The notes beneath the pieces are model-generated. The model searched no databases. It was not told where the DNA came from and saw only the letters and a list, made by a program, of their open reading frames with translations. From Apoderus coryli (taxonomy: Eukaryota; Arthropoda; Insecta; Coleoptera; Attelabidae), in contig OU452198.1 in assembly GCA_911728435.2 (NCBI GenBank), positions 14,728,001 to 14,792,000 on the forward strand: a DNA stretch of 64,000 bases, written 5' to 3'. Position numbers and translations under genes: made by a program. Positions 37,768 through 64,000 of the stretch are shown piece after piece; position 1 is the first letter of the stretch, and every line of letters begins with the position of its first letter.

Positions 37768-37883
37768 ATTGATGAAAAATAATGTCGTGGCATAGCGGAT
37801 AAAATGACTGGTTTTACCTAGGGATTTTGTTTAATTTAGCAGGGCCTCAGTCTAATTCAGTAGAACCAGACCGAGGCATGGGT
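37768..37883 (-). repeat. Dispersed relative of the 525-bp hammerhead satellite
   Basis: It aligns at roughly 85 percent by eye with 61447-61560 of the terminal satellite. Shared phrases are TTTTGTTTAATTTAGCAGGG and ACCAGACCGAGGCATGGGT. It stops 12 bp short of the satellite's predicted ribozyme cleavage site and lacks the ribozyme. It lies 60 bp beyond the LINE relic. Confidence 0.75.
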
Positions 37884-38183
37884 GTCATTTTATAATTTTA
37901 CATTATTAGGCATCAACGACCGAACGCTTGGACAGGATTACAAAACAGTGAGACCAGGATATGAAGCATTCTCGGAAGCATCTAAATTGTTAAATATAAT
38001 AAAAGGAAGAATTTCTTCTGTCAGAAATTTACTATTTAAATTACAAAACATTTCTCATTCATCTATAATTATTCAACTATTTAGCACAAAATAATTGGAG
38101 ATCCATTAAACATTTAATATTTTGTAATAGGAAATAAAAGTCTGACTCCACAAAATCAATTTAATACGTTACACTCAATGTGT

Positions 38184-39425: not shown

Positions 39426-41512
39426 CAGGGTGGTCCAACGAAAAGTTTGCACCTAGCTTTTCTCTTTTTTTTGTAGTCGAATGCGAAAATGCTCGGACAC
39501 GTCGATTTTGCTTTTGAGGGGGACACATTTTAAACATATTTTTCGATCTGCGCCTTTAACCCCCTAGCGGGGCTGAGTAACAACCCTAAAATTTTAAATG
39601 GAAAGAGGGGTCTAATGACATATCATTTGAAAGGACACAAAATTGTCTTTCTAATGATACCCTATTTGTCGAATTTTACTAAAACAGTTAATACGAAAAC
39701 GACTTTAAAGACATTAAGCCGATAATTTTGGTATTAATGAGAAATACAAATAAGTTTTAATTATTGCGAGTGAAAACACCTGCAATCGTTAGTACATTCC
39801 AATGTTTGTTAGTTTTAACATTGCTTTGTAAAAAAAGTAAACAAGCTGTTAAATTGATTTATTAAAACGTTACATTAACAAATGTTGAAAATGTGACCCA
39901 TTTGATTCCATACAATAATACAGATTTTGTTCAAATCTATTTCTAACATTTTGTAGCATATCAGGTGTTATGTTTCTGCACTCTTCTGTAATGCGTTGGC
40001 GAAGATCTTCTATGGACTCGGGCTTCGTGGCAAAACATTTATTTTTTAAGTGCCCCCAAAGAAAAAAGTCTAAAGGCGATAAATCCGGTGACCTGGCAGG
40101 CCATTCAATTGGGCCCCTCCTTCCAATCCACCGTCCAGGGAACCGGTCATCTAAGAACTGTCTTACAGGAGCCACATAGTGCGGAGGTGCTCCATCTTGC
40201 TGGAAATAAAGCCGATCAGCAGTATGATTTTGGTCATCTTCTATTATTTGTGTTATTAAAGGATCAATTGTGTCTTCAAGCATGTTTAGGTACACTTCAC
40301 CAGTTAAATTTCCAGGAATAAAAAGTGGTCCTATAATATGATTTCCTAATATGCCACACCAGACGTTTATTTTTTGAGGATACTGGGTATGAACCTCACG
40401 GAATAAATGTGGGTTACTGTCATCCCAGTAACGGCAATTGTGCCTATTTACAGCTCCATTCAAATAAAATGTGCATTCGTCGGAAAAACAAATGTTAAAT
40501 AATAATTGCGGATCTTCAATTAAACGCTGGCTCATTGCTTCACAAAATTGCAGCCTTCTATCAGGATCATCCTCATTTAGTTCCTGTACTAATTTGATTT
40601 TGTACGGATGAAATTTGTACGCTTTTAAAATTCGTATTATGGACGAACGGGAGACACCTGAGGCTTCAGCTAGTTGACGGGTACTTTGACTATGATCCAT
40701 TTCAACATGCCCTAAAACAGCGACTTCCACAGCTTCATTTCTGATCGGTTTCTGCGGCTGGTGTTTTACATTACAGACAGATCCGGTATCTACAAACTTT
40801 TTAACTAACTTGCCAACGTACACATCATTCACATTTTTATCGGGATGTCTCTCATTAAATAAGCGAGCCGTAAGTCTAGCACTACTATTATTTTGAAAAT
40901 AAAGTTTAACAATTTCAACTCGTTCTAGAATGGAATAAATCATTTTGTACGGTAAAAGTAAAATAACTTGAGAAGCAACCAAACTGAATCAATGAAAAGA
41001 CTAAAATAAACGGTGTAAATTCTTTTCCTACACGTATCTGCAGTTTTTATTTCAACAAAAAACGCAAACGATTAGTGAGGAATTTAGTTCTGATAAATAA
41101 GATCGTGTTTTTGAAATCCCGTTTTTCTTCAAAGTAAATAATTTAGAAATGATTGTAGTTGTTTTCAGTCGTAATAATTAAAACTTATTTATATTTCTCA
41201 TTAATACCAAAATTATCGGCTTAATGTCTTTAAAGTCGTTTTCGTATTAACTGTTTTAGTAAAATTCGACAAATAGGGTATCATTAGAAAGACAATTTTG
41301 TGTCCTTTCAAATGATATGTCATTAGACCCCTCTTTCCATTTAAAATTTTAGGGTTGTTACTCACCCCCGCTAGGGGGTTAAAGGCGCAGATCGAAAAAT
41401 ATGTTTAAAATGTGTCCCCCTCAAAAGCAAAATCGACGTGTCCGAGCATTTTCGCATTCGACTACAAAAAAAAGAGAAAAGCTAGGTGCAAACTTTTCGT
41501 TGGACCACCCTG
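39426..41512 (-). mobile_element. Complete DD41D mariner-like transposon with intact transposase
   Basis: It is 2087 bp, bounded by TA at 39424-39425 and 41513-41514. The inverted repeats are about 355 bp (39426-39780, about 41158-41512), starting CAGGGTGGTCCAACGAAAAG, with only scattered differences. One uninterrupted transposase gene occupies the centre on the minus strand. All parts expected of an autonomous element are present, unlike every other DNA transposon in the window. Unlike several relatives, its flanks are not palindromic. Confidence 0.9.
39870..40943 (-). CDS. DD41D mariner-like transposase (DUF4817-type), intact
   Basis: About 357 residues from the methionine at 40943 (MIYSILERVEIVKLYFQ). 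A start at 40982 would add 13 residues. I prefer the inner one because the related copy at 4393 begins at the equivalent place (MENIYSYADIV). Residues about 1-60 form a DUF4817-like helix-turn-helix, and about 70-120 a second one (STRQLAEASGVSRSSIIRIL). The catalytic blocks are FSDECTF, QQDGAPPH and SPDLSPLDFFLWG, with 41 residues between the second and third aspartates. The C-terminus is conserved (FEQNLYYCMESNGSHFQHLL). In the family the enzyme binds the terminal repeats and moves the element by cut-and-paste into TA sites. No frameshift or stop is seen. The gene fills the space between its inverted repeats. Confidence 0.9.
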   Translation of the reverse strand: MIYSILERVEIVKLYFQNNSSARLTARLFNERHPDKNVNDVYVGKLVKKFVDTGSVCNVKHQPQKPIRNEAVEVAVLGHVEMDHSQSTRQLAEASGVSRSSIIRILKAYKFHPYKIKLVQELNEDDPDRRLQFCEAMSQRLIEDPQLLFNICFSDECTFYLNGAVNRHNCRYWDDSNPHLFREVHTQYPQKINVWCGILGNHIIGPLFIPGNLTGEVYLNMLEDTIDPLITQIIEDDQNHTADRLYFQQDGAPPHYVAPVRQFLDDRFPGRWIGRRGPIEWPARSPDLSPLDFFLWGHLKNKCFATKPESIEDLRQRITEECRNITPDMLQNVRNRFEQNLYYCMESNGSHFQHLLM

Positions 41513-57800: not shown

Positions 57801-60697
57801 ACGTGGATTTGCCCCATTTTGTAAACATCGAATAAAAATTCCGAAACAATTTTTTTAGTTTTTCATGCTTCTCTGAGCACGTGGTTAAAATTTTTGTACA
57901 GAGTGATAGTTCACCCTGTATACTTCGCGTAAAAACAATATGTTTGCAGTTCCCCATCACAGAACAAACTATGCAGGGCGGGCGCCAGTGGTTAGAGCTT
58001 GTGCGTTGGCGAATACACTTAATATTGACAAAGAATTAAATTTTTATAATGCCAGTGTTGGTGAATTTGTTGTTGATCTGCGAAGATATATTATGTCGAA
58101 TCGAAGTTAAGGTTTTGCGTGTTGCTATAGTTTTTGAACCCATATTTTGATTGTATCGCTCTTTATTCATTCAAATGTCCGTTTCTGCTGCATAATTCGT
58201 TTCGCTACTTCGTTGATTACCTACATGTTGTGAATGAAGTGTGAATCATATTTTGGCATTTACAATGAATCGCTTAAATATTGTTATCTTGGTTAATCTA
58301 AGCTAATTAGGTAGTAGTGCATTATGTTTTGCATTTGTACTCGTATATTAGTTATACCATTTGTATTTATTATAATTTGTCTTGTAATTGGGCGTAAGGT
58401 AAGCTTGTTAGGCAATAAATGATTCTTATTATTATTATTCACTGATGATTCAAAAACAATTCCGATACAGCAGCACGCAAGCAGAAAGCAAATCCAATAC
58501 AAAAAAAATACAATTTTTTGAATCTAATGTTAGTGTATAATAATAGAAGTACTGTGCGCTAAAATGCTATAATCAGTTAAAATCTCTGGTAGCTAAGCCT
58601 CCTTAGAGGCCCCGAGCTCTTCAAAATCAAAGTGTCGAACAATCAAAACAGACTGATAAACAATATTCCAACTTTGGTCTGGATTCCTGTCCACTCTGGT
58701 TTAGAAGGAAACGAAACGGATGCGTATCTATCTGCACCGCCCAATACCTGGGTGATGAGTTCAGAACGTTAGACAGCCAAGTAGCTGATGAATCGAGTCT
58801 AAAAGAAAGCTCAAAGTTATGTTATTTAATTGTGATTTAGATTCTTTTATCTAAGAACGACTTCAGACAAATTGTAATTGAGTTCGCACCATGTAAGTGA
58901 ATTTAATGAAACTTAGTACCGCTGTATTACCGAATAATCCCACGAAAATTTTGAAATATATTAAAAGCAAATTTATACACTTTAGATTTTTAATATAGCT
59001 AACTTATTGTTTATCTTATCGCTTGCATACTCGATTTTCGTGAGATTAAATAAGTTGCTAGAGCTTTTTAATCATCCACAGCAAGCTGCCTTTTTCGTCG
59101 ATGAGAAATATGAATTCATACTATGTCCGCAAAAAAGTCGGCATATTATTAGAGACAATGGAAATTGGTACAGTTAGGTTTTTCTTATCTAAAAACTAAA
59201 AATAAGGTAGGTAGACCATAATAGTTACATGACAAATTTGACTTTTTTTTGACATCACAAAGTACCGTTATTTATTTTTTATTTTCACCGGAAATACATG
59301 TTTTATACGTAAATAGGTAGTTTTTATTGGTTTAATAGAGTATAAACTAAAACATTAACCATAAAAAAAATTAGACACATTAGCGTTCGAAAAGAGGGTC
59401 AAAATGGGTTAAAAACTTTACAAAAACATATTTCCTCAACATATAGCAGAAATATTGAGTAGTTATTTATAGCTTTGATAGAATTAACCTATGAAATATA
59501 TCATAAAAAACTTGCTTACATAGGCGTTCGTAAATAGTGGAACAAGGGTTAAAATACAAAAAAGTATTTCGTATATAAACCTATTCGAAATATGAAATTC
59601 AAATCTAATTTTAAGTTAATTGAAACGCCATTGCCACACCCAAAAGGCAACTTAATCCGCATAACGTTTTGTTAATTTTATCGAATTAAATGATTTATAA
59701 AATGAAAATAAAACTCGAATGATGAATGATTTGAATTTGTTTTAATGATTTGCAATTTGATTTGATTTCAATTTAAATTTTAAATATGTACAAATTTATT
59801 TGACTCAGGAATTAATACTTTTCTCAGAACATAAAGATAACAATTAATAATCTTTTTCGGAAATTAATAGAGCACTGATGATGGCTCCATCATCATGGTG
59901 CTCCGAAACATGTATGGTTACAAAATAATTTGTAGATAAATCTATTAAATTTGTTTTGCTTGTTACTATATTAACATCATCTTTGTAAAAATCAGTCAAA
60001 GGTTGGATTTTTTTCTAAAACTCTAATATCGCTTCCGGTTTTTAATATAAATACTAAACACAATTTATTATCTATTTTAGGAAATCATTTGCAATCAATC
60101 AAACAAGGAATATTCGACCGAACAACTATACGAAGTCTAATTCTCTCAGACAATGTGATTGACTTTATTGCGCCAAATGCTTTTGATGATATGCTACACT
60201 TAGAGGCAATTGCTTTAGACAATAATCGACTTGCGAAGTGGAATATACAATGGTTTCACAATGCCGCATCCCTATATGAAATATCAATCAGTCAAAATTA
60301 TTTAAGAGAACTACCTGCCAAATTAACCACCAACATGGGTGGTATACCATTTTCATATCACACATATTCAGTATTAGGTAGTTTAAATTTTGACACTAAC
60401 TTGATAGAGAAAATTGATAGTAATGCATTTACGAATCTAAATATAATTGATAATATAAGTTTAAAAAATAATAGACTAGTCAAACTTCCATTCAAAGTTT
60501 TCAAAAGTATTGTATATTTCTATGAATTGAATTTGAGTGGAAATAATTTTCATTGCTTCGATAATGAGACCATAACAGAGAGTTTTGGGAATGTAAGACG
60601 GTTGATAATAGCTGACAATCCTATTGGTTTGGATTGTCAATTAAAATTGAATGAGTATTGTGAAGAAAGACTCCATTGTTTCTGTACGTTTAGTTAG
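48803..60697 (+). CDS. Secreted leucine-rich-repeat protein, two exons
   Basis: Exon 1 is 48803-49163 and exon 2 is 60081-60697. The donor GAG|GTAAAT and acceptor TATTTTAG|GAAAT join in phase to give VDLRGNHLQSI, a perfect LRR consensus across the junction, which supports the splice strongly. The product is 325 residues. Residues 1-26 are a signal peptide (hydrophobic IAKCILLLFHLNVSVA), then an N-terminal region with Cys35. About eight LRRs follow, including VEQVDLRGNHLQSI, IRSLILSDNVIDFI, LEAIALDNNRLAKW, LGSLNFDTNLIEKI, IDNISLKNNRLVKL and FYELNLSGNNFHCF. The end is a Cys-rich cap (DCQLKLNEYCEERLHCFC). No transmembrane segment follows, so secretion is inferred. The ligand is unknown; such insect proteins are usually extracellular binding modules. 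A polyadenylation signal AATAAA lies at 60860-60865. The 10.9 kb intron is packed with transposon relics. A longer transcript with further 5' exons cannot be excluded. Confidence 0.85.
49164..50013. other. Intron of the LRR gene, first part; no other gene
   Basis: AT-rich intronic DNA. No transposon family is recognised before 50014. Confidence 0.4.
50014..50448. repeat. Nested palindrome: 218-bp MITE at the TA centre of a longer inverted repeat
   Basis: The inner element 50121-50338 has ends TA|CAGGGTATATCAAAAATAAC and complement, with TA at 50119-50120 and 50339-50340. The outer arms (50014-50118, 50341-50448) are inverted copies. The joined empty site around the TA (50109-50118 and 50341-50350) is a perfect 22-bp palindrome. 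It is non-coding. Confidence 0.75.
50485..50716. mobile_element. Right arm of a mariner-like element
   Basis: It contains AAAACGGCTAAACTTAGGTA, typical of the arms in this superfamily, and ends GTCGTGGGACACCCGG|TA at 50716-50718. A related decayed end is at about 48474-48500. No transposase is present. Confidence 0.55.
50719..51261. other. Intronic spacer; no feature recognised
   Basis: AT-rich, no repeats of note. Confidence 0.35.
51262..51496. mobile_element. Possible 235-bp MITE with CAGGGTG ends
   Basis: It runs from TA|CAGGGTGTCCAATAA to TAGACCACCCTG|TA. Only the outer 8 or so bases match as inverted repeats, so two unrelated termini are an alternative. Confidence 0.35.
51895..52736 (-). 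mobile_element. Decayed repeat and mariner-like transposase scrap
   Basis: 51895-52035 is a fragment of the dispersed repeat (ATAGGTTCATCCTACGATTC). At 52130-52175 the minus strand reads RSPDLNSFDFF, the third catalytic block of the DUF4817-type transposases; a few bases on, GHL-like codons are visible. A terminus TTACGGACACCCTG|TA ends at 52736. Everything is heavily eroded. Confidence 0.5.
52737..53288. other. Intronic spacer; no feature recognised
   Basis: AT-rich; nothing supported. Confidence 0.35.
53289..53800 (-). mobile_element. Decayed relative of the 6285-7560 transposon
   Basis: It shares TATGTCCTTACCGATT and AACTAGATCAAAATTA with the arms at 6340 and 7350. On the minus strand it still has a MWGHLQRNFASHIAI reading (about 53740-53697), the WGHLK block of the transposase. 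It appears to have lost the rest of the gene. Confidence 0.55.
53860..54750 (+). pseudogene. Jockey/CR1-like LINE reverse transcriptase C-terminal part
   Basis: Frame one reads LIKVEDWCSTKKLPLNLNKC, KLMTFSKR, DVTRDLGILADNELTFNQHI. Frame two, from 54195, reads YISMVRSRLEYASIIWSPIY and CIERIQRKFLKYLFYK, continuing to about 54536. At 54626-54750 another frame gives FDDAYDRLPNKFKLDI, probably the C-terminal end. The W-C ... L-N-x-x-K-C and R-S-x-L-E-Y-A-S-x-x-W blocks mark the thumb and connection region after the catalytic palm. The catalytic motif itself is missing. Confidence 0.75.
54787..55585 (-). pseudogene. 5'-truncated LINE, C-terminal protein and 3' end
   Basis: The minus strand reads NNTVKFLGVEVDSLLSWYMH from about 55560 and stays open to a stop at 54939. 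Within it are SFYFAHVHSVLSYSVVVWGN, ILQKRIIRTI, FNHLPQHFKLVRSPKQFKMN and LLRYSFYTLNEYF, the usual C-terminal region after the reverse transcriptase. The 3' UTR ends AATAAAGACTATGATTATGA and a short ATGATT microsatellite at about 54787-54820. It is tail to tail with the preceding LINE relic. Confidence 0.8.
55837..57488. repeat. Large 1.65 kb palindrome centred near 56815
   Basis: CAAATGTTC...GAGGCC at 55837 is mirrored by GGCCTCTTCGAACATTTG ending at 57488. Long stretches (for example 56075-56530 against 56930-57385) are inverted copies of each other. The left arm carries an extra 140 bp near 55880-56020 and about 180 bp near 56540-56720. The latter contains its own small palindrome (CACAGCTAACAT...ATGTTAGCTGTG). 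There is no coding capacity. It may be a fold-back transposon. Its superfamily is not recognised. Confidence 0.8.
57489..58439. other. Intronic spacer; lone transposon end and a LINE-like tail
   Basis: A single CACCCTG|TA terminus lies at about 57913-57920. At about 58410-58438, AATAAATGATTC followed by a TTATTATTATT run suggests a LINE 3' end. Nothing coding. Confidence 0.4.
58640..58790 (+). pseudogene. RNase H fragment of a LINE
   Basis: It reads NNIPTLVWIPVHSGLEGNET followed by DAY. This matches the W-I-P-G-H-S-G-x-x-G-N-E-x-A-D block of RNase H domains in R1/I/jockey-related LINEs; here the glycine of PGHSG is V and the final AD is TD. It is isolated and dead. Confidence 0.6.
58791..59369. 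other. Intronic spacer; no feature recognised
   Basis: AT-rich; nothing supported. Confidence 0.35.
59370..59590 (-). repeat. Minus copy of the GAACGCCTATGT repeat
   Basis: It contains ACATAGGCGTTCGTAAATAG and a GAGGGTCAAAA word, the complement of units at 1990-3510. It is non-coding. Confidence 0.55.
59868..59918 (+). ncRNA. Hammerhead-like motif in the LRR gene intron, sense strand
   Basis: GCA, CTGATGA (59875-59881), an imperfect helix II (GGCTCCAT/ATGGTGCT around CATC), CCGAAA, then ACATGT, A and TGG. The core strings are intact. Helix I is poor (only about 2 pairs), so activity is doubtful. It lies about 160 nt upstream of exon 2. Confidence 0.45.
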
Positions 60698-60924
60698 AAT
60701 TAGAATGTGAAGATCAATAATACAAATGTGTAAATATGGTATGTTTAATGAATTAAATTTTATAAATTTACCTCTGTCCATGTAGAAAATCTCTCCAAGA
60801 ACAACAGCGACAGATAATCAAAAACGATGATAATTATAAAAGCTATTTAATGCATTTTAAATAAATAATTGTAGGAATTCTATCAGAGCTAACTGTTTTA
60901 AGGGCTTAACATTTAAGAACGAAG

Positions 60925-61287
60925 GCTTATCTACTTCAAAATCAGCTTTCATCTATAGGTCGATTTGCAGAACACTTCTAGAATATGGCCATCCACTTTA
61001 CCTCAACTGTCGCCGAGGTTCAATGTACAATCTCCAAATTGCAGAACGTTCAGCTCTACGAACATCAAACCAGCTACTATATACAGCTGACAGCTGTACG
61101 CAAATAGTACCAATAGAGGAACGACTACCACACTTAACTGCAAAGTTTGCCAGTTCTGATGAGCAAATAAGAAGAACACACGAATATGCTATATTGCTAC
61201 CTCCTGAACACATTTCCCGTCTGAAATTTCCACCTGAAAGTCTCTTGGAGGCTTTGCAGAGACTGCACGAACATGGCCAAAATTGAG
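60925..61287 (+). pseudogene. Jockey-like LINE C-terminal fragment
   Basis: It reads ICRTLLEYGHPLYLNCRRGS, MYNLQIAERSALR, then IVPIEERLPHLTAKFASSDE, QIRRTHEYAILLPPEHISRL and LEALQRLHEHGQN, to a stop. This is the conserved end of jockey-type reverse transcriptase proteins. A small deletion separates SALRT from SNQLLYT. It lies 230 bp downstream of the LRR gene on the same strand. Non-functional. Confidence 0.7.
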
Positions 61288-61566
61288 AATTCAACATCAG
61301 GAATTATTAAAACTAAAACTATAAATTAATCTCTTGTCTTCTCTTTTGAATCTTTGTTTTTTTTTTCTTTCAAAAATATTTAGGATTATTTTAGTTTACA
61401 ATATACAATCAATTAAGAGGATTTCATGTCCGTAAATATAATAAATGAAAATAATTTCGTGGCAAAGCGGACTAAAAAGTTGGCTTTACCTACACAAGGA
61501 ATTTTGTTTAATTTAGCAGGGCCCCAGTCTAATTCGATAGAAACCAGACCGAGGCATGGGTCGACA

Positions 61567-61614
61567 GGTACTGACGAATTCGTTTCGCTCTTGTTATGAG
61601 CTCGTCAGAGCACC
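61567..61614 (-). ncRNA. Type I hammerhead ribozyme, unit 1
   Basis: On the minus strand, helix I is GGUGCU (61614-61609) pairing with AGUACC (61572-61567), six pairs with one G-U. The core is CUGACGA (61608-61602). Helix II is GCUC/GAGC with loop AUAACAA (61601-61587). Next is GAAA (61586-61583). Helix III is ACG/CGU closed by AAUU. The cleavage triplet is GUC, with cleavage predicted between 61573 and 61572. All invariant hammerhead nucleotides are present. Helices II and III are closed and helix I is open, which is the type I arrangement. Cleavage at successive units would release 525-nt monomers. Confidence 0.9.
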
Positions 61615-62091
61615 ATAGTCGCTGCCCATCACAAATATCGACCTGCATTTAAGCACAATAGGATACACAACAGTAGACACATGTAAACATATATCATCTA
61701 CATGTACATAGTAATGCATATCTCATACCATGCAGAGGCCGAACAAACTCAATGTATAGGTAAAACCAGTCGTATAAATAGAAATAAATATAAATAAAAA
61801 TAGTATGAACACAAAACGCTAGCAGGAGACCATTTTATCCTTCTGCCAGCATCTCCCAAATATTTGGGTTTCAGCAATGCTCGGACGGTGGTCTCCAAGC
61901 GTTCTGCCGTCGATGTTTAATGCCAAATAATGAAAAATTAAGAGGATTTCATGTCCGTAAATATAATAAATGAAAATAATTTCGTGGCAAAGCGGACTAA
62001 AAAGTTGGCTTTACCTACACAAGGAATTTTGTTTAATTTAGCAGGGCCCCAGTCTAATTCGATAGAAACCAGACCGAGGCATGGGTCGACA

Positions 62092-62139
62092 GGTACTGAC
62101 GAATTCGTTTCGCTCTTGTTATGAGCTCGTCAGAGCACC
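62092..62139 (-). ncRNA. Type I hammerhead ribozyme, unit 2
   Basis: Identical in sequence to the unit 1 ribozyme. Predicted cleavage is between 62098 and 62097. Confidence 0.9.
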
Positions 62140-62616
62140 ATAGTCGCTGCCCATCACAAATATCGGCCTGCATTTAAGCACAATAGGATACACAACAGTA
62201 GACACATGTAAACATATATCATCTACATGTACATAGTAATGCATATCCCATACCATGCAGAGGCCGAACAAACTCAATGTATAGGTAAAACCAGTCGTAT
62301 AAATAGAAATAAATATAAATAAAAATAGTATGAACACAAAACGCTAGCAGGAGACCATTTTATCCTTCTGCCAGCATCTCCCAAATATTTGGGTTTCAGC
62401 AATGCTCGGACGGTGGTCTCCAAGCGTTCTGCCGTCGATGTTTAATGCCAAATAATGAAAAATTAAGAGGATTTCATGTCCGTAAATATAATAAATGAAA
62501 ATAATTTCGTGGCAAAGCGGACTAAAATGTTGGCTTTACCTACACAAGGAATTTTGTTTAATTTAGCAGGGCCCCAGTCTAATTCGATAGAAACCAGACC
62601 GAGGCATGGGTCGACA

Positions 62617-62664
62617 GGTACTGACGAATTCGTTTCGCTCTTGTTATGAGCTCGTCAGAGCACC
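62617..62664 (-). ncRNA. Type I hammerhead ribozyme, unit 3
   Basis: Identical in sequence to the unit 1 ribozyme. Predicted cleavage is between 62623 and 62622. Confidence 0.9.
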
Positions 62665-63141
62665 ATAGTCGCTGCCCATCACAAATATCGGCCTGCATTT
62701 AAGCACAATAGGATACACAACAGTAGACACATGTAAACATATATCATCTACATGTACATAGTAATGCATATCCCATACCATGCAGAGGCCGAACAAACTC
62801 AATGTATAGGTAAAACCAGTCGTATAAATAGAAATAAATATAAATAAAAATAGTATGAACACAAAACGCTAGCAGGAGACCATTTTATCCTTCTGCCAGC
62901 ATCTCCCAAATATTTGGGTTTCAGCAATGCTCGGACGGTGGTCTCCAAGCGTTCTGCCGTCGATGTTTAATGCCAAATAATGAAAAATTAAGAGGATTTC
63001 ATGTCCGTAAATATAATAAATGAAAATAATTTCGTGGCAAAGCGGACTAAAAAGTTGGCTTTACCTACACAAGGAATTTTGTTTAATTTAGCAGGGCCCC
63101 AGTCTAATTCGATAGAAACCAGACCGAGGCATGGGTCGACA

Positions 63142-63189
63142 GGTACTGACGAATTCGTTTCGCTCTTGTTATGAGCTCGTCAGAGCACC
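63142..63189 (-). ncRNA. Type I hammerhead ribozyme, unit 4
   Basis: Identical in sequence to the unit 1 ribozyme. Predicted cleavage is between 63148 and 63147. Confidence 0.9.
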
Positions 63190-63666
63190 ATAGTCGCTGC
63201 CCATCACAAATATCGGCCTGCATTTAAGCACAATAGGATACACAACAGTAGACACATGTAAACATATATCATCTACATGTACATAGTAATGCATATCCCA
63301 TACCATGCAGAGGCCGAACAAACTCAATGTATAGGTAAAACCAGTCGTATAAATAGAAATAAATATAAATAAAAATAGTATGAACACAAAACGCTAGCAG
63401 GAGACCATTTTATCCTTCTGCCAGCATCTCCCAAATATTTGGGTTTCAGCAATGCTCGGACGGTGGTCTCCAAGCGTTCTGCCGTCGATGTTTAATGCCA
63501 AATAATGAAAAATTAAGAGGATTTCATGTCCGTAAATATAATAAATGAAAATAATTTCGTGGCAAAGCGGACTAAAAAGTTGGCTTTACCTACACAAGGA
63601 ATTTTGTTTAATTTAGCAGGGCCCCAGTCTAATTCGATAGAAACCAGACCGAGGCATGGGTCGACA

Positions 63667-63714
63667 GGTACTGACGAATTCGTTTCGCTCTTGTTATGAG
63701 CTCGTCAGAGCACC
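63667..63714 (-). ncRNA. Type I hammerhead ribozyme, unit 5
   Basis: Identical in sequence to the unit 1 ribozyme. Predicted cleavage is between 63673 and 63672. The unit itself is truncated by the window end, but the ribozyme is complete. Confidence 0.9.
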
Positions 63715-64000
63715 ATAGTCGCTGCCCATCACAAATATCGGCCTGCATTTAAGCACAATAGGATACACAACAGTAGACACATGTAAACATATATCATCTA
63801 CATGTACATAGTAATGCATATCCCATACCATGCAGAGGCCGAACAAACTCAATGTATAGGTAAAACCAGTCGTATAAATAGAAATAAATATAAATAAAAA
63901 TAGTATGAACACAAAACGCTAGCAGGAGACCATTTTATCCTTCTGCCAGCATCTCCCAAATATTTGGGTTTCAGCAATGCTCGGACGGTGGTCTCCAAGC

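Follow-up and report, generated by a model that had tools for sequence, protein, structure and literature searches.

Animal retrozymes are tandem repeats that carry type I hammerhead ribozymes and are expressed as circles, and LINEs or Penelope-like elements have been conjectured as their helpers (PMC7229834). Ribozyme circles in general measure from 150 to over 1000 nt (PMC7229834). Among Penelope-like elements, an anole protein was shown in vitro to cleave both target strands and extend them; reverse transcription begins at two neighbouring sites inside the RNA, and the segment separating these becomes the genomic tail (PMC11167929). This tail between two starts is called a signature unique to Penelope-like elements in the same report (PMC11167929). 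In a rotifer, Penelope-like elements with inverted terminal repeats have been described, along with a tail of 31 bp and 8-10-bp duplications (PMC3846280).

The 3′ part of the window, that is, the whole 64-kb stretch of DNA that was analyzed, has a period of 525, with 2061 of 2065 positions identical. The array begins at 61411 and reaches the window end, thus comprising 4.93 units with three substitutions between units. The element to which it belongs (locus L009, G000:C1:14789411-14795401) is 5,991 bp long and consists of 6.79 plus-strand copies followed by 4.63 minus-strand copies; its second arm lies past the window end. The preliminary description had treated the locus as a simple tandem array, which is wrong because the copies of this element stand head to head. 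The following features of the element were found in the window:

61402 to 61413, no strand assigned: left copy of the 12-bp target duplication TATACAATCAAT, with the same copy at the right end of L009
61411 to 64000, minus strand: part of the retrozyme element lying in the window (4.93 of 11.4 units), from the period of 525 and the genome map of L009
61414 to 61443, minus strand: tail, lying between the zones where reverse transcription starts (modes at units 4 and 34), from the starts in 35 elements
61567 to 61614, minus strand: type I hammerhead copy 1, by descriptor, with predicted cleavage between 61573 and 61572
62092 to 62139, minus strand: type I hammerhead copy 2, by descriptor
62617 to 62664, minus strand: type I hammerhead copy 3, by descriptor
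63142 to 63189, minus strand: type I hammerhead copy 4, by descriptor
63667 to 63714, minus strand: type I hammerhead copy 5, by descriptor

The first 3 bases of the array belong also to the left copy of the duplication, and the tail stretch is present at only one end of the element. No ORF of 110 aa or longer was found in the array; neither a reverse transcriptase nor a GIY-YIG endonuclease is encoded, and the element is therefore not itself a Penelope-like element. The GC content of the unit is 39.4%, under the 45% limit for low GC in animal retrozymes. As characterized in the passages cited here, the animal non-LTR retrozymes (Cervera and de la Pena, 2020; PMC7229834) share with this element short low-GC tandem repeats, each unit of which has a type I hammerhead whose helix III is short, the lack of LTR features and a predicted self-paired circle. 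They differ in unit length, ~170-400 nt against 525 bp, a range that is not treated as defining, and the same passages describe no head-to-head arms, fixed 12-bp duplication or tail for them.

The ribozyme is repeated in every unit. On the minus strand, each unit reads GGUGCU-CUGACGA-GCUC(AUAACAA)GAGC-GAAA-CG(AAUU)CG-UC/AGUACC (slash, predicted cleavage), a complete type I hammerhead with a helix I of 6 bp, a helix II of 4 bp and a helix III of 2 bp with a tetraloop. The pair A15.1-U16.1 adds to helix III. A strict type I descriptor (helix I of at least 4 bp, CUGANGA, helix II of at least 4 bp, GAAA, helix III of at least 2 bp, UH) gave exactly five matches in the 64 kb, all on the minus strand, with CUGACGA starting at 61608, 62133, 62658, 63183, and 63708. 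No match was obtained in 100 dinucleotide shuffles read on both strands. These results bear out the complete minus-strand hammerhead in every monomer reported in the preliminary description, and the predicted cleavage position agrees with the one given there, 5′ of 61572. The five hammerheads are near-identical copies and thus count as a single independent observation. The covariance search proposed earlier was less productive: the array has no match to the Rfam models at the gathering score, and the best match below it, HH9, aligned the core correctly with 20.6 bits against the 52 needed (E 0.08). Such a match proves nothing alone, and Rfam by itself is insufficient to establish the hammerhead. 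Among the ribozyme windows of 40 loci fetched from the genome, counting only those at most six substitutions away, 164 of 166 are perfect over 48 nt, so a core-inactivating base in most monomers, which the preliminary description named as evidence against its reading, is not the rule. Part of the ribozyme, used as an exact pattern, was found nowhere in the viral and prokaryote contigs scanned.

Three more motifs composed of CUGAUGA, a hairpin and GAAACAUGU were observed in the window, at 59875 (plus strand), 47145 (minus strand) and 38225 (minus strand). Their hairpin sequences differ. They resemble the minimal hammerheads of Penelope-like elements and are rejected by the strict descriptor.

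The 525-nt minus-strand circle has a predicted folding energy of -165.0 kcal/mol, compared with -120.9 ± 5.6 in 100 shuffles, and its paired fraction is ordinary (0.625 vs. 0.613 ± 0.024 in shuffles). In linear RNA folding, both strands of the unit fold well, the ribozyme strand more so (z -7.05 for the minus and -4.60 for the plus strand). Within the circle as folded, GUCG/CGAC and CCCAU/AUGGG lengthen helix I. For the isolated ribozyme, an inactive hairpin is favored over the active fold (-20.2 vs. -15.0 kcal/mol), and the active fold costs 5.2 kcal/mol within the circle. In the hammerhead core, for example at 61574-61608 (minus strand), GACGA can pair with UCGUC of the cleavage site to form the inactive hairpin. 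The core also contains the palindrome CGAAUUCG, so paired ribozymes are possible. Activity of natural hammerheads is raised by loop-loop contacts (PMC3088659), which lie outside the computed folding energies.

At least 193 matches to the unit were found in the 428-Mb host assembly (129 contigs), as dispersed insertions. In total, 40 loci were fetched from the best of the 193 matches listed (40 of 1532 first-look candidates were scored); the loci therefore represent young, intact copies, and all totals are lower bounds. The recent spread of the unit proposed earlier is upheld. Two arms of tandem copies, plus and then minus, stand head to head in 36 of the 40 loci, including L027, in which one arm has a short internal duplication. 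Two-armed elements measure 0.7 to 7.2 kb, and arm size in the mapped loci varies from 0.15 to 8.9 units, in line with the tandem dimers to multimers known for animal retrozymes. The four one-armed loci are L011, L012, L024, and L030, the last with a 13-bp duplication by eye.

A 12-bp target duplication flanks 35 of the 36 two-armed elements. For 17 elements, the longest string shared across both outer junctions measures 12 bp; it is 13 bp for 11 and 14 bp for seven. When left and right junctions were paired at random (974 pairings), it never exceeded 9 bp. Since the minimum is exactly 12 in all 35, the duplication is fixed at 12 bp, the strings of 13 and 14 bp reflecting chance identity. The remaining element, L041, has a shared string of only 4 bp and a disrupted outer part. 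Where animal retrozymes have a target duplication, it is expected to exceed 4 bp, as this one does. The label of a 525-bp insect satellite thus holds for the unit length and the ribozyme in each unit, and is replaced in other respects by that of a dispersed two-armed retroelement with target duplications. Satellite DNA in the sense of long arrays without insertion scars was rejected: the 40 loci are short arrays, and duplications accompany 35 of 36 two-armed ones.

The outer ends of the elements are equally regular. With the duplication removed, 33 of 35 elements have one end starting in unit 522-7 (mode 4), and 34 of 35 have the other starting in unit 32-38 (mode 34). Both zones are kept in 32 of the 35, which is 32 of the 36 two-armed elements; the exceptions are L019 (513), L042 (512), and L026 (214). 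The distance between the two starts is 28-47 nt, with a median of 32 (34 elements). At the two starts, target and unit overlap on average by 1.94 and 2.37 nt, where chance would give 0.97 and 0.93; the observed averages were reached in 1 and 0 of 5000 resamples, respectively. The null used was two-sided (~0.95 nt), a one-sided version (~0.5 nt) being too low.

Arm-length statistics were calculated for 33 elements, with L026, L027, L041 and the four one-arm loci dropped. Tailed and untailed arms have mean lengths of 1075 and 1074 nt, respectively. The two lengths are not significantly correlated (log Pearson 0.13; Spearman 0.31, p 0.08) and are compatible with an exponential distribution (KS p 0.16), and arm end points around the unit are not distinguishable from uniform (KS p 0.23 and 0.60). 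The centre junctions have a mean overlap of 2.0 nt in 20 elements (chance 0.69) and 1-19 nt of filler in 13. Arms and centre together read as two independent extensions followed by end joining. Longer than one unit are 47 of the 66 arms, and the ribozyme cut site is passed by 32 of 33 tailed and 28 of 33 untailed arms, so that the template was not usually a cut linear monomer. Five of 33 tailed arms end in unit 155-170, around the cut site, where ~1 was expected; this is a post hoc observation from which no claim is made.

Sequence variants within the elements were tabulated at eight sites chosen for their recurrence; 30 single-copy variants were left unused, as were three gapped arms (L019, L040, and L046). 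Recurrent variants are uniform within the element in 283 of 285 site-element combinations. The arms are concordant in all 218 site comparisons, and the 11 of these that involve a rare allele all agree. For instance, each of the 14 copies of L036 that cover the site has 48T. Since a variant originates in a single monomer and yet fills the whole element, it must have passed through a single-monomer template, most simply an RNA circle. Both arms of an element would derive from either one circle or sister circles; later gene conversion could be an alternative source of the uniformity. Two mixed cases were observed, each a single copy with an allele common elsewhere: copy 3 of L009 (68T) and a minus-arm copy of L036 (280C). 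Recurrent mutation, conversion, template switching and assembly error are candidate causes.

The scar described above recurs in GIY-YIG elements of the same genome. A six-frame search for GIY-YIG gave at least 150 scored matches (of 1260 first-look candidates), many of them as close minus-plus pairs and some with frames of several hundred residues. The inner distance in 18 hand-picked pairs ranges from 421 to 3771 bp. Outer ends were fetched for 11 pairs of one family, herein referred to as X, and for one pair of a second, Y. Both ends were located by script in 8 of the 11 X pairs, each having a 33-nt tail at one end only. The shared strings of X measure 12, 12, 12, 13, 13, 13, 14, and 14 bp, compared with at most 6 bp in 300 random pairings. 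Pairs L057/L058 and L067/L068 gave 5 and 2 bp under stricter limits, and 12 bp each after the limits were widened by 3 nt. By eye, the same scar was seen in L053/L054 (12 bp) and L069/L070 (14 bp), and the left stretch of L065/L066 is not an X end. In the single Y pair, also judged by eye, one end bears a tail of ~30 nt, and the shared string measures 14 bp.

Downstream of the frame, elements of both families have motifs resembling minimal hammerheads; in the two pieces submitted to Rfam (L049 and L052), these gave no match. A 66-aa piece near a Y element matched no Pfam family and had only a weak match in a structure library. Assignment of X and Y to the Penelope-like elements is putative and rests on the GIY-YIG domain, frame length, hammerhead and scar, the reverse-transcriptase domain being unconfirmed. 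Similarity between the retrozyme and X tails is not significant (292 of 1000 shuffles were as good), so likeness of tail sequence was rejected as proof of the exact partner. In an anchored comparison with X, the second start zone of the retrozyme (unit 31) ranks 1-3 of 525 and the first start gives nothing; no claim is made from this test.

The local Penelope-like elements thus bear the scar of the retrozyme, their arms standing head to head, with a tail of 30-33 nt at one end only and duplications of 12-14 bp, which points to Penelope-type machinery. Judging from this anatomy, the element is probably a non-autonomous element of the animal-retrozyme type, integrated by such machinery, a single circle serving as the template on which the two ends of the broken chromosome are primed. 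Minus-strand transcripts would cut themselves by the hammerhead into 525-nt monomers, which would then be closed into circles; the preliminary description had likewise predicted 525-nt monomers, possibly circular. A protein of presumed Penelope type, combining a GIY-YIG endonuclease with a reverse transcriptase, would break AT-rich DNA with a stagger of 12 nt; the 12-bp duplication and extension of both 3′ ends suggest that the overhangs are 3′ and 12 nt long. Both 3′ ends would anneal over a few bases to one and the same RNA circle, ~30 nt from each other, and each would be extended around it a variable number of times. The two cDNAs would then be joined head to head by end joining. The expected product is a 12-bp duplication, a tailed arm, a random centre junction, an inverted tailless arm and the second 12-bp duplication. 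We lean slightly towards a wider form of this scheme, in which double-ended rolling-circle target-primed reverse transcription is common to the retrozyme and its Penelope-like movers. Two reverse transcriptases would start ~30 nt apart on one circle, from a single break with a 12-nt stagger.

Like the Penelope-like elements of the anole and rotifer reports (PMC11167929; PMC3846280), as far as their cited passages describe them, the element combines extension of both strands, adjacent starts with a 30-40-nt tail, inverted repeats, AT-rich targets and a hammerhead in the RNA. Unlike them, it encodes no protein, and its hammerhead is canonical rather than minimal. The duplication is 12 bp here and 8-10 bp in rotifers (PMC3846280), and the one-end tail, called optional for Penelope-like elements in the literature consulted, is present in nearly every element. 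In the anole system, as reported, the start sites lack homology to the cut DNA and are the same for both strands, and the main substrate is unprocessed RNA (PMC11167929); the scheme proposed here departs from it on these points.

Alternatively, the same enzyme may have copied the same element from an existing array, through a linear multimeric transcript left uncut. The arms longer than one unit need either a multimer or a circle, and the mixed cases L009 and L036 fit a multimer; however, a mixed array would yield mosaics, whereas the variants are uniform in all but two of the combinations and in both arms, which makes this template unlikely. Inverted arms of tandem repeats with a target duplication of fixed length are also expected of a DNA transposon of the foldback type, whose inverted ends are long and repetitive. 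A transposase needs matching ends, though, and the outer ends here differ (~unit 4 vs. ~unit 34) and wobble by several nucleotides at their starts; the centre junctions are scattered, and neither the ribozyme nor the single-monomer haplotypes would play any role, so that we regard such a transposon as very improbable.

Twin priming by LINEs produces inversions, and LINE remnants adjoin both the array and a relic of a related element described below. An insertion driven by a LINE in this manner is nevertheless highly unlikely, as the fixed 12-bp duplication, the two fixed priming sites and the tail at one end match the local Penelope-like elements instead. Least credible, to the point of being nearly negligible, is an ordinary satellite spread by unequal exchange, with the hammerhead incidental: the units are indeed tandem and near-identical, but the loci are dispersed, with target duplications and defined outer ends. 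Unequal exchange may change arm length afterwards. Integration by Penelope-type machinery from a circle therefore remains our preferred reading.

The window also contains a trace of a related family:

37776 to 38097, no strand assigned: diverged relic of a related element, without the ribozyme stretch, from similarity to the unit

Its plus arm (37776-37883) is 83-85% identical to unit 38-151, and the minus arm, which follows head to head, has a weaker, gapped similarity to the unit. As a genome query, the relic has at least 52 matches, itself included (40 scored of 2030 first-look candidates). Among the matches listed, its longer relatives are 84-94% identical, and several stand as close inverted pairs. 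These relatives indicate a related, apparently larger family, which is apparently older than the retrozyme. Directly upstream of the array, at 60089-61290 (plus strand), a leucine-rich-repeat frame is followed by a stretch that resembles a LINE C-terminus by eye. Additionally, a frame of 370 aa with a DUF4817 helix-turn-helix, by appearance a mariner-like transposase, was found at 39870-40982 (minus strand), with close relatives in two weevils and a scorpion among the named matches of the 120 listed.

The preliminary description regarded the locus as a candidate for an undescribed system and compared it with pDo500 and the schistosome Sm-alpha repeats. Animal non-LTR retrozymes had already been published (PMC7229834), and they are closer to this element than those repeats, which are related in kind. 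The pDo500 repeats of Dolichopoda cave crickets are likewise from an insect and ~500 bp long, with a hammerhead shown to cleave; they differ as an abundant satellite (~5% of one genome), for which the cited passages describe no insertion scars (PMC2837043). Schistosoma W-elements are satellite-like repeats as well, some with type I hammerheads, and one presumptive target duplication is mentioned, whereas the head-to-head scar and the tail are not described in the parts of that report cited here (PMC8490949). Both the retrozyme class and the Penelope hypothesis are thus already published. The new part is the insertion junctions, which lie outside the interval covered by the preliminary description; no report of such junctions for retrozymes was found in the titles, abstracts and consulted passages of the open-licence papers retrieved.

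According to a 2020 review, retrozyme repeats show no motif that reveals their mobilizing partner (PMC7761336), and a 2024 review still names both LINEs and Penelope-like elements as helpers (PMC11722881), as far as the cited passages go. The insertion scars answer, by anatomy and for one genome, the question of which machinery moves animal retrozymes: the link to Penelope-like elements, previously only suspected, is the one to which they point. With their uniform haplotypes, the elements document in the genome that single monomers were copied, as expected under the circle model. Corals, mussels and salamanders can be searched for the same marks straight away.
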